Part shown: positions 2,721 through 5,082 of the stretch, in pieces
Layout: every line of letters begins with the position of its first letter
Numbering within the stretch: position 1 is the first letter of the stretch
IMG/VR virus record: IMGVR_UViG_3300031974_000370
Location: 1 to 38,281 of that record
DNA length: 38,281 nucleotides
Direction: 5' to 3' (one strand)
From: a virus
Position numbers and translations under genes: made by a program
Notes under the pieces: model-generated
The model's database searches: none
Seen by the model: the letters and a program-made list of their open reading frames with translations, nothing else
Told to the model about the DNA's origin: nothing

Positions 2721-3965
2721 ATGTTAAACACTAAACAAATAGAGTTTGTTTCCCATGCTGTTAAGATGTTTGGTTCTAATGAACTAACAGCTAATCAGTT
2801 AAAAGAAGCAAATGCTCATTTTGGTGCTAAATATGCACCTCAATGGTTAATCAAAAATGATGACTACAAACTAGGTAAGATTGATGGCAAAATGGTCTTC
2901 AAACTACCTAATGAAGACGGTGAAGCCGTTGCCTCTGTAGCTTCTACAACTCAATCAACTGTTTCAGAACCTGTTGCCGAAAAAGTTTTATCTAAGGCGT
3001 CTGAGTCTGAAACTAAACATGAAGCTGCTTACATTGTTTCATCACTAACAGGAAATATTGTTCCGAAAAAAGATCCTGTTTTCGTAAGTTTCGGTAACTA
3101 TCCAGATGTTAAATCTATTATTAAGTCTGGTATGTTTTATCCAGTTTTCATTACTGGTCTTTCTGGTAACGGTAAGACTATGGGTGTTACTCAGGCATGT
3201 GCTGAAAACAAAAAAGAATTAATCAGAGTCAATATTACAATTGAAACTGATGAAGACGACCTTTTAGGTGGTTACAGATTGAAAGACGGCCAAACTGTTT
3301 GGCAAAACGGTCCTGTAATCGAAGCCATGGAAAGAGGCGCTGTTCTTCTCTTAGATGAGATTGACCTTGCTTCTAATAAGATCATGTGTTTACAACCGAT
3401 CTTAGAAGGTTCTGGTGTCTTTGTTAAAAAGATAAACAAGTTTGTAAAACCTGCTCAAGGTTTCAATGTGATTGCTACTGCCAATACTAAAGGTCAAGGT
3501 AGTGATGACGGTAAGTTTATCGGTACTAATGTACTTAACGAAGCTTTCTTAGAAAGATTCCCAATTACATTTGAGCAATCTTATCCAAAACCTGCTGTTG
3601 AGGAAAAGATACTTGTTAATACTCTTAAAAAATCTGGTAAATCAGATAAAGAGTTTTGTAAAAAACTTGTAACATGGGCTGATGTAATCAGAAAAACCTA
3701 CTTTGACGGTGGTGTTGATGAGATTATATCAACAAGAAGATTAGTCCACATCATTCAAGCGTATGCTATCTTTGATAAAAAGATGAAAGCGATTGAAGTC
3801 TGTACAAACAGATTTGATGATGACACAAAAAATTCATTTATGGAGTTATACTCTAAAGTTGACGCTGGCGCTTCTGCTGAGCAGATAGCTGAACAGCAAA
3901 GAGCTTCAGAAATCAACTCTCAAATGGATGACAACGATAGTGAGTCGGATGCTGACGCAATCTAA
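2721..3965 (+). CDS. MoxR/CobS-like AAA+ ATPase, partner of the VWA protein
   Basis: A 414-aa AAA+ ATPase. The N-terminal ~70 residues form a small helical domain, followed by a linker and the ATPase core. The core has Walker A GLSGNGKT (146-153), Walker B VLLLDEID (208-215), a sensor-1 asparagine in VIATANTKGQGS and an arginine-finger-like ERF. CobS/MoxR family members of this type are widespread in marine T4-like phages and are often annotated as cobalamin-biosynthesis CobS. With the adjacent VWA protein it forms a MoxR-VWA pair. An upstream in-frame ATG at 2697 would place AAAGGA inside the gene, so 2721 is preferred, with that RBS about 12 nt away. The tail is acidic (DDNDSESDAD). A role in B12 synthesis is unproven; a chaperone or remodelling role fits equally well. 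Confidence 0.85.
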   Translation: MLNTKQIEFVSHAVKMFGSNELTANQLKEANAHFGAKYAPQWLIKNDDYKLGKIDGKMVFKLPNEDGEAVASVASTTQSTVSEPVAEKVLSKASESETKHEAAYIVSSLTGNIVPKKDPVFVSFGNYPDVKSIIKSGMFYPVFITGLSGNGKTMGVTQACAENKKELIRVNITIETDEDDLLGGYRLKDGQTVWQNGPVIEAMERGAVLLLDEIDLASNKIMCLQPILEGSGVFVKKINKFVKPAQGFNVIATANTKGQGSDDGKFIGTNVLNEAFLERFPITFEQSYPKPAVEEKILVNTLKKSGKSDKEFCKKLVTWADVIRKTYFDGGVDEIISTRRLVHIIQAYAIFDKKMKAIEVCTNRFDDDTKNSFMELYSKVDAGASAEQIAEQQRASEINSQMDDNDSESDADAI

Positions 3966-3982
3966 ATCTATCAAACATAGTG

Positions 3983-4027
3983 TAGTCCTAGGTGGAGGGG
4001 TAGTGCCCTCCACCGTTTTAAGGACTA
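3983..4027 (+). promoter_or_regulatory. nested hairpin between the AAA gene and rpsU (terminator-like / S21 leader)
   Basis: An inner 9-bp stem pairs GGTGGAGGG (3991-3999) with CCCTCCACC (4006-4014) and is followed by GTTTTA. An outer 7-bp stem pairs TAGTCCT (3983-3989) with AGGACTA (4021-4027). The structure ends 8 nt before the bS21 ribosome-binding site. It may end the upstream transcript weakly (short U tract) or act as a structured leader controlling bS21 translation. Confidence 0.6.
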
Positions 4028-4051: not shown

Positions 4052-4258
4052 TTGAGCATTACTGTACAAGTAAGAAATGGAAACTTAGAACAAGCCATGC
4101 GTGTACTAAAGAAAAAAGTACAAAAGGAAGGCATTGTTAAAGAGTTAAAGGCAAGGCAATATTACGAAAAACCATCAGCTGTTAAACGTGAAAAGAAAAA
4201 ACAGAATATTAAAAATTGGTTAAAAAAACGTAAAAAGGCAGAAAAAGAATTATTATAA
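4052..4258 (+). CDS. rpsU: Ribosomal protein bS21 (phage-encoded)
   Basis: A 68-aa highly basic protein with the hallmarks of bS21: an N-terminal [10 protein letters not shown] strand, a helix with [18 protein letters not shown], the conserved YYEKPS signature and a lysine/arginine tail. bS21 sits near the anti-Shine-Dalgarno region of the 30S subunit and helps select mRNAs. Viral S21 homologues are known from marine phages including pelagiphages. The start is TTG at 4052: a near-perfect AAAGGAGGT lies 7 nt upstream, and the protein then begins as bS21 normally does. An upstream TTG at 4028 would add eight residues that include the translated RBS and is rejected. The structured leader just before it and the structured RNA just after suggest post-transcriptional control. 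The likely role is biasing host 30S toward phage messages (inference). Confidence 0.93.
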
Positions 4259-4261
4259 GAG

Positions 4262-4525
4262 TTTCAGTTTAGCCTATAAGTGGATATATATTTAAGATAG
4301 GCCGTCCGTAAGTCCTATCTCTTATAGGTGACCGACAAAATTTCTTAGGTTGTCGGTGTCGTGGAGTTGGTGGATCTTCATAAACAAAACCACCAAAGTT
4401 TTGTCGGAGTTTGGCGAGAGTTTAAAACCGACTATGTTTTTGGCAGTTGCGCCTGGTTTCAGTAAAAAACTAAAGCTGCGGATCTCTTTGGTAGTTTAAG
4501 ACCCTAAACCGAAACTACCTTTTTA
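4262..4525 (+). ncRNA. candidate structured RNA between rpsU and hsp20
   Basis: This lies in the only gene-free interval longer than 300 bp (4259-4632). Complementary segments read by eye give consecutive helices: CCTATAAG/CTTATAGG (4273-4280 with 4321-4328) stacked on AGATAGG/CCTATCT (4295-4301 with 4314-4320); ACCGACAA/TTGTCGGT (4331-4338 with 4350-4357); TTGGTGG/CCACCAA (4367-4373 with 4390-4396); GTCGG/CCGAC (4403-4407 with 4428-4432); an imperfect hairpin at 4456-4476 with an A5 loop; and a terminator stem at 4490-4519. TTTTGTCGG at 4399-4407 can alternatively pair with CCGACAAAA at 4332-4340, so a switch is possible. It has no convincing promoter of its own, so it is either the 3' UTR of rpsU or processed from it. 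It has no tRNA or tmRNA features. The RNA family is unknown. Confidence 0.5.
4490..4524 (+). terminator. intrinsic terminator ending the structured RNA
   Basis: GGTAGTTT (4490-4497) pairs with AAACTACC (4512-4519) and is followed directly by TTTTT (4520-4524). The loop is 14 nt. It separates the rpsU/structured-RNA unit from the hsp20 late transcript. Confidence 0.75.
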
Positions 4526-4569
4526 AGTGCGACAGAATTGACCACTTGTAATTCTATAAATCGTTCTTA

Positions 4570-4577
4570 TATAAATA
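4570..4577 (+). promoter_or_regulatory. T4-type late promoter of hsp20
   Basis: Exact TATAAATA, the T4 late consensus recognised by the gp55 sigma-like factor, 55 bp upstream of the hsp20 start, which leaves a normal leader. A small hairpin (TGAGC 4582-4586 with GCTCA 4597-4601) lies in that leader. Confidence 0.65.
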
Positions 4578-4632
4578 ATAGTGAGCGCCATAAAGGGCTC
4601 ATTAACATTAACTTGCTTACAAAGGAGATAAA

Positions 4633-5082
4633 ATGACTAATAGAGCAATTTCAATTTTTAACCAACTAAGACCCTATTCAGTAGGATTTGATGATGTATT
4701 TGACCATTTCGGTAGAATGTTTGATGATGACCTACTTGAAGTAAGGACTCCAAACTATCCACCATACAATATCGTAAAAGATGGTGATAACAAATATCAC
4801 ATTGAGGTGGCATTAGCTGGTTATGGTAAAAAAGACATTGAGGTTACATATGAAAACAATATGTTAACTATCAAGTCTATTAAAGACAAAGCAACAAAAG
4901 AGGTTGAGGACAATGATGGTGTACTTCATAAAGGTATTGCCAAAAGAATGTTCACAAAATCTTTTACGATTGCTGATGACGTAGAGATAAAATCTGCCGA
5001 ACTAAAAGATGGTTTGTTAACAATCTCATTAGAGAGAATTATTCCAGACCATAAAAAGGCAAGAACTATCTCTGTTAAATAA
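4633..5082 (+). CDS. hsp20: Small heat-shock protein Hsp20 (IbpA-like)
   Basis: A 149-aa alpha-crystallin family chaperone. The N-terminus has the IbpA-type RPYSVGFDDVFDHF (13-26). The alpha-crystallin domain spans about 45-138 and includes ALAGYGKKDIEV and the signature AELKDGLLTISL (122-133). A short tail ends in TISV, an I/V-x-I/V-like anchoring motif. Small Hsps hold unfolded proteins in oligomers without ATP. Hsp20 genes are common in marine T4-likes and have been proposed to assist capsid or scaffold folding. The TATAAATA promoter and the strong AAAGGAGA RBS upstream support high late expression, which fits an assembly role. The gene is insulated by terminators on both sides. Confidence 0.93.
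   Translation: MTNRAISIFNQLRPYSVGFDDVFDHFGRMFDDDLLEVRTPNYPPYNIVKDGDNKYHIEVALAGYGKKDIEVTYENNMLTIKSIKDKATKEVEDNDGVLHKGIAKRMFTKSFTIADDVEIKSAELKDGLLTISLERIIPDHKKARTISVK

Follow-up and report, generated by a model that had tools for sequence, protein, structure and literature searches.

A conserved, structured RNA element upstream of hsp20, shared by two clades of T4-like marine phages

The window, i.e. the whole 38,281-base IMG/VR virus record that was analysed, is from a T4-like phage in which the interval examined (4259-4632) lies between rpsU and hsp20 (Table 1). The start codon of rpsU is probably TTG 4053, as judged from the Shine-Dalgarno (SD) sequence AAGGAGG; a strong inverted repeat precedes the gene (3983-4025, TAGTCC..GGTGGAGGG..CCCTCCACC..GGACTA) and may be a structured leader. 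The interval, described in an earlier note on this DNA as gene-free, is confirmed to be non-coding: its sole open reading frame of at least 40 aa, a 49-aa frame starting at TTG, has no match in Pfam or PHROG. A conserved small open reading frame within the core of the RNA described below was considered and rejected, in that no frame stays open in the cores of most relatives; in Mosig (L001) the RNA is overlapped by two annotated hypothetical proteins (4324-4572), neither of which is likely to be a gene. Folded as a single sequence, the interval reaches -72 kcal/mol vs -63.3 +/- 4.4 kcal/mol for shuffled sequences, 4 of 200 of which were equally good; this being only modestly better than shuffles, the weight of the case rests on relatives.

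Table 1. Features of the rpsU-hsp20 locus in the window
Feature	Position	Strand	Description
rpsU (bS21)	4053-4258	+	PF01165, E 9.3e-18; upstream neighbour in pelagiphages only
P1 outer helix	4273-4328	+	CCUAUAAG 4273-4280 / CUUAUAGG 4321-4328, 8 perfect pairs
A/T-rich stretch	4283-4294	+	GATATATATTTA in the window; TATATATATTATG in most relatives
Core RNA P2-P3-PK1	4295-4395	+	Matches the cross-clade model (R2) and the pelagiphage model (R1)
P2 hairpin	4295-4320	+	AGAUAGG[CCGUCCGUAAGU]CCUAUCU; conserved 12-nt loop CNNYYCRUAAGW
P3 hairpin	4331-4361	+	ACCGACAA 4331-4338 / UUGUCGGU 4350-4357, then GUCG
PK1, H-type pseudoknot	4361-4395	+	S1 GUGGAG/CUUCAU (4361-4366/4376-4381); S2 UGGUGG/CCACCA (4368-4373/4390-4395); A-rich L3 4382-4389
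Hairpin after PK1	4403-4432	+	GUCGG 4403-4407 / CCGAC 4428-4432 around GGCGAGAG
PK2 module	4431-4479	+	GCAG 4443-4446/CUGC 4476-4479; UGGUUU 4454-4459/AAACUA 4468-4473; stems around UUGCGCC; closing S1 ACU/AGU, 3 pairs
PK3 module	4485-4519	+	S1 UCUU 4485-4488/AAGA 4498-4501; S2 GGUAGUUU 4490-4497/AAACUACC 4512-4519
TTTTT after PK3	4520-4524	+	Possible terminator tail of the window's lineage
hsp20 promoter region (putative)	4546-4577	+	TTGTAA 4546-4551; TATAAATA 4570-4577, T4 late type
hsp20 leader	4579-4635	+	Hairpin I 4579-4604 with bulged G; UUGCUU 4613-4618 opposite AAGGAG 4622-4627
hsp20	4633-5082	+	PF00011, E 6.3e-17; constant downstream neighbour

Viral contigs were scanned twice with protein anchors, which yielded 160 loci; with Mosig added, 142 loci have rpsU then hsp20 in the same order, at a spacing of 223 to 1913 nt. 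Nearly all of these rpsU-hsp20 loci share a 5' domain made up of P1, the A/T-rich stretch, P2, P3 and, in most, a YGUCGC element, which directly follows P3 in most pelagiphage rows; PK1 comes after this domain, and further modules are present in some loci. The core P2-P3-PK1 (~100 nt) is also found in the isolates Mosig and HTVC008M. A second clade with the core RNA comprises OM43 phages of the Melnitz type; in Melnitz itself the P2 motif lies just upstream of hsp20, and a scan with Melnitz Hsp20 gave 41 distinct sequences of OM43 type. The same gene order, with a cobS-like gene, rpsU and hsp20, occurs in the distant giant Pseudomonas phage PA5oct (L164), with no model match between the genes.

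Within the 5' domain, P1, which is absent in OM43 phages, encloses P2 and the A/T-rich stretch; the latter may resemble a promoter -10 element. At the P1 position relatives read UUUACGCC/GGCGUAAA or CCUACGC/GCGUAGG. Almost all relatives have the P2 loop, Mosig, HTVC008M and Melnitz amongst them, although a strict loop pattern overlooked the window and a few others, which have CC before RUAAG and were recovered with a looser pattern. HTVC008M (L163) has two P2-like hairpins in succession at 3545-3590, with CUCGUAAAU in both loops. A resemblance of UUCGUA to the 16S 690 loop was discounted, the match being too short to tell from chance. PK1 has a U-rich L1 and an A-rich L3 in most relatives. Three further pairings of the P2 loop were tried and rejected, i.e. 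of its CRUAA with UUAUG of the AU stretch as an extra pseudoknot, which by eye fails in the window, L011 and L058; of its GUAAG kissing CUUAC of the OM43 P3 loop, which reads CCUAC in many rows and has no counterpart in pelagiphages; and with the ROSE strand ACUUGC of the hsp20 leader, where L004 and L010 (leader ACUCGC) have an uncompensated break.

The earlier note listed a series of helices between 4273 and 4519, of which P1, P2, P3 and several more are present, and proposed compensatory changes in relatives as a check on them. That check was passed, with covariation of P1, P2, P3 and the S1 stem of PK1 beyond both shuffles and a tree null, in which columns evolved independently along the hsp20 gene tree (500 simulations). 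For pelagiphage P1 and P2 a MAFFT alignment of 23 sequences, not fitted to structure (A3), was used; 95.2% of the P1 and P2 cells are paired, a value that falls to 86.4% in shuffles and to no more than 56% when the alignment is slid, with double changes in 10 of 15 pairs, and the tree null reached neither the P1 nor the P2 covariation score in any of its 500 runs. P1 taken separately has 97.8% of cells paired and double changes at 6 of its 8 pairs. An alignment of 25 OM43 sequences (A5) has 97.5% of cells paired (vs 89.3%); P3 (93.3% paired) was equalled by the tree null in 2/500 simulations and S1 (97.3%) in none of 500, whilst P2 (195/500) varies too little in this clade to be informative. 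For S2, 99.4% of cells are paired, and the tree null reached its score in 61/500, its paired cells in 1/500 and its double changes in 8/500 simulations. The OM43 evidence for the pseudoknot is, hence, strong for S1 and weaker for S2, the score of which alone does not beat the tree null. Pelagiphages have 41 distinct S1 and 46 distinct S2 strand pairs, and their PK1 has a mean score of 25.5 vs 7.9 in shuffles, which serve as the control because the stems were picked by maximal pairing. That hairpins and knots are kept by compensating mutations in ~100 relatives indicates that the RNA itself is under selection.

Amongst the cells that are not Watson-Crick paired, GU (57) greatly outnumbers AC (5), so the RNA lies on the + strand, in the same sense as rpsU and hsp20. 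The excess of GU, together with the constant orientation to hsp20, makes it very improbable that the element acts at the DNA level, e.g. as a replication or packaging site with hairpins acting in single-stranded DNA, a proposal that would agree with the finding of just one convincing copy in each isolate genome searched.

Homology across the two clades was assessed with covariance models built from OM43 phage sequences alone (R2) and from pelagiphages with the window left out (R1), the E-values of which are rough by the tool's own statement. The OM43 model finds the expected place in the window (4297-4395, E 0.0064), in HTVC008M (5.1e-4), in Mosig (0.0065) and in the majority of pelagiphage loci; its matches elsewhere have E-values of at least 0.18, with the exceptions of L116 (0.098) and L119 (0.19), which are inside the interval but off the core. 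Searched against the whole genomes of Melnitz, HTVC008M and Mosig, it gave its best match at this locus each time. The pelagiphage model matches the window at 4270-4362 (E 1.9e-4) and Melnitz at 0.15. Amongst cyanophages, 14 cyanophage-like hsp20 loci had no Rfam match, and five such loci and P-SSM3 gave no match to the OM43 model, nor did 289 alphaproteobacterial genomes at E 0.01, the latter being a search for a host origin with no positive control and with the SAR11 share of the genomes not established. The element is thus a conserved, structured, sense-strand RNA, homologous in two clades of T4-like marine phages.

The core is followed by modules that differ between lineages. The 30-nt stretch of the hairpin after PK1 is identical in three other contigs only; in other loci the corresponding stems, as judged by eye, differ and surround GCGAGAG or GCGCUAGCG. 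By eye, PK2 and PK3 occur with varied stems in about twenty relatives, PK2 in 21 distinct copies with closing stems such as GUGG/CCAC, GAGUU/AACUC and GUGUU/AACAC, and PK3 with S1 as GAGUU/AACUC or GUGUU/AACAC and S2 as GGUUAUUUUUUU/AAAAAAAUAACC. The minimum free energy of the 3' part alone is no better than that of shuffles (57/200 as good), as calculated with a program that does not model pseudoknots. Two optional elements of other loci were observed, i.e. a near-identical ~60-nt hairpin, CTTATAGATATTCACTAGG...CCTAGTGAATTTCTATAAG, between PK1 and the hsp20 promoter of L021 and many other relatives, and absent in others, and a ~90-nt module, GGYYCATTGGYCTTCGTAGC...GTGAGRCCTACC, without an Rfam match, between PK1 and PK2 in L098, L114, L118 and L126. 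The functional RNA of ~260 nt envisaged in the earlier note is borne out in part, in that a conserved structured RNA takes up most of the interval; its helices are real, but much of the structure consists of pseudoknots rather than the plain helices described. The proposed U-tract terminator can be seen in the window, but most relatives have no such tract behind their last pseudoknot. The alternative pairing of 4332-4340 with 4399-4407 exists in the window and in L082; L080 and L085, which keep the 4399-4407 strand, have lost it.

Linkage was scanned by RNA sequence alone, so avoiding the bias of protein anchoring. Downstream and on the same strand, hsp20 is present at 48/48 OM43-type loci and at 72 of 80 pelagiphage-type loci, or 72/73 when the 7 loci where the contig ends first are set aside; the exception, L413, has kept the RNA with no hsp20 nearby. 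An upstream rpsU is found at 73/80 pelagiphage loci (4 more have no room for it) and at 0/48 OM43 loci, where the same core RNA has another gene upstream; the rpsU of Melnitz is located elsewhere in its genome (PMC9004378). It is hsp20, therefore, and not bS21 to which the RNA is tied, and the connection to bS21 that the earlier note drew from the position of the RNA is lineage-specific, not general; a decoy for ribosomes or RNA-binding proteins, also suggested there, is a possible role but gained no support. Nor does the pattern favour the possibility that the RNA is only a stabiliser of mRNA ends, with its pseudoknots blocking exoribonucleases at the 3' end of the rpsU mRNA and no action in trans. 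The pelagiphage RNA does begin a few tens of nt from the rpsU stop, P1 pairs adjoining sequence, and pseudoknots occur in strings, all as a stabiliser would have it; OM43 phages, however, have no upstream rpsU, and a mere barrier would not need a near-invariant P2 loop, such that we consider this proposal distinctly improbable.

Sequences resembling promoters flank the RNA. Many OM43 phages have a promoter resembling TTGAAA-17-TATATAAT whose end directly precedes P2, which makes this the probable start of the RNA. Immediately before P2, 48% of OM43 phages (vs 2% of shuffles) and 61% of pelagiphages (vs 11%) have a -35/-10 score of 9/12 or higher; the -35 of the pelagiphage signal overlaps P1, and the window scores 8/12 only. 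On the other side of the RNA, pelagiphages have a promoter-like TTGACA/TTGTAA-TATAAATA before hsp20, which counts for independence of the RNA from the hsp20 leader in these phages; TATAAATA or close variants of it are present in most relatives. Some OM43 phages do not have the RNA, and in L193, L195, L196 and L197 the promoter that otherwise precedes P2 is joined directly to the hsp20 leader, implying that the RNA forms a unit, which can be missing.

These observations bear on whether the RNA is a cis-acting 5' leader of hsp20, i.e. one that heads an early hsp20 transcript and acts jointly with the ROSE-like hairpins to control its translation, stability or termination. Such a leader would fit the linkage with hsp20 equally well, and in OM43 phages such as L209 and L233, with no TATAAATA in between, the promoter before the RNA seems to be the only one. 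What counts most against it is the promoter-like element that in most genomes, namely those of pelagiphages and of most OM43 phages, stands between the RNA and hsp20; in addition, L413 has the RNA with no hsp20 nearby. We regard a cis-acting leader as possible, if rather unlikely.

The explanation that we favour, tentatively and with a little less than even confidence, is that the element represents a new family of small structured phage RNA, most likely a discrete small RNA. It is favoured by the covariation of P1/P2 and of P3/S1/S2, the cross-clade model matches, the sense strand, the independence from rpsU, the behaviour of the RNA as a unit and the promoter-like signal before P2. It is weakened by the hsp20 linkage, which is equally expected of a cis leader, by the lack of a terminator after the RNA in most relatives and by the weak promoter score in the window. 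It can be inferred that the discrete RNA would be started at its own sigma-70-like promoter in OM43 phages, and would be cut from the rpsU transcript, or form the end of that transcript, in SAR11 phages. PK1 may provide a compact fold protecting the 3' end, perhaps a triple-helical, nuclease-resistant one, an idea that comes from sequence alone; the near-invariant P2 loop may be where a partner of host or phage origin is contacted and acted on in trans, and the extra modules of the window would enlarge the same RNA. A bolder proposal, to which we give correspondingly less credence, is that of a trans-acting, nuclease-resistant phage RNA of an undescribed class, which, in infected SAR11 and OM43 bacteria, uses its 12-nt loop to bind a component of the host, and which has grown by addition of pseudoknot modules. 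SAR11 and OM43, the hosts of these T4-like phages, are amongst the most abundant bacteria of the sea, and the presence of the RNA in isolated phages with cultured hosts (Mosig, HTVC008M and Melnitz) makes it testable at once.

With respect to known RNAs, Rfam 15 gave no match above the gathering score in the window, and in 11 relatives only three tRNAs, none of them at the RNA, so that the Rfam search proposed in the earlier note gave no known family for it. Nothing like the degraded tRNA cluster raised there as a counter-explanation was found, ARAGORN (0 genes) and Rfam giving no tRNA or tmRNA remnant in the window. Elements of the manA, wcaG, glutamine-riboswitch and tmRNA types have been described in such phages (PMC2864571, PMC9004378); a literature search, which covered open-licence papers with most subscription journals outside its scope, gave no description of the RNA reported here.

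The manA RNA motif (RF01745) is likewise a structured RNA of T4-like marine phages and has been reported from putative 5' UTRs, those of ibpA chaperone genes amongst them (PMC2864571). Its covariance model has no match in the window, however, and the matches in Mosig (64 bits) and HTVC008M (25.9 bits, short of the cut-off) are located elsewhere in those genomes. The mRNA leader of T4 gene 32, the product of which, gp32, is an mRNA-specific repressor (PMC535899), also places an H-type pseudoknot in an mRNA region of a T4-like phage; by contrast, the RNA described here is linked to another gene, has extra conserved hairpins and is not always within the downstream mRNA, and the rpsU-hsp20 locus has no Rfam match. 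OLE RNA is a precedent for a non-coding RNA bound by bS21 (PMC12054373), but is ~600 nt long with an anti-SD mimic at the bS21 site, whereas here there is, by eye, no conserved CCUCC element and the core occurs without an adjacent rpsU.

Separate from the core RNA, the hsp20 leader is, by its anatomy, a candidate ROSE-like thermometer. In common with ROSE-type thermometers it precedes an sHsp gene and has U(U/C)GCU (here UUGCUU) opposite the SD, a bulged G and an upstream hairpin; by contrast with them it does not reach the Rfam ROSE_3 gathering score of 43 bits (20.7 bits in the window, 34.1 bits in Melnitz), though ROSE_3 is the only notable match below gathering score. Hairpin I shows strong covariation, with 97.1% of its cells paired (score 0.667 vs 0.228 shuffled), the SD hairpin is predicted to fold in the L061 and Melnitz leaders, and the TYGCTT..AAGGAG motif occurs in all 156 pelagiphage leaders and in 70 of 79 others. 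Similar leaders are observed in OM43 phages and, partly as TTGCTA variants, in cyanophage-like contigs. With the blyA element counted as only the second RNA thermometer in a phage genome (PMC11182007), the hsp20 leader would add to a very small group of phage RNA thermometers.
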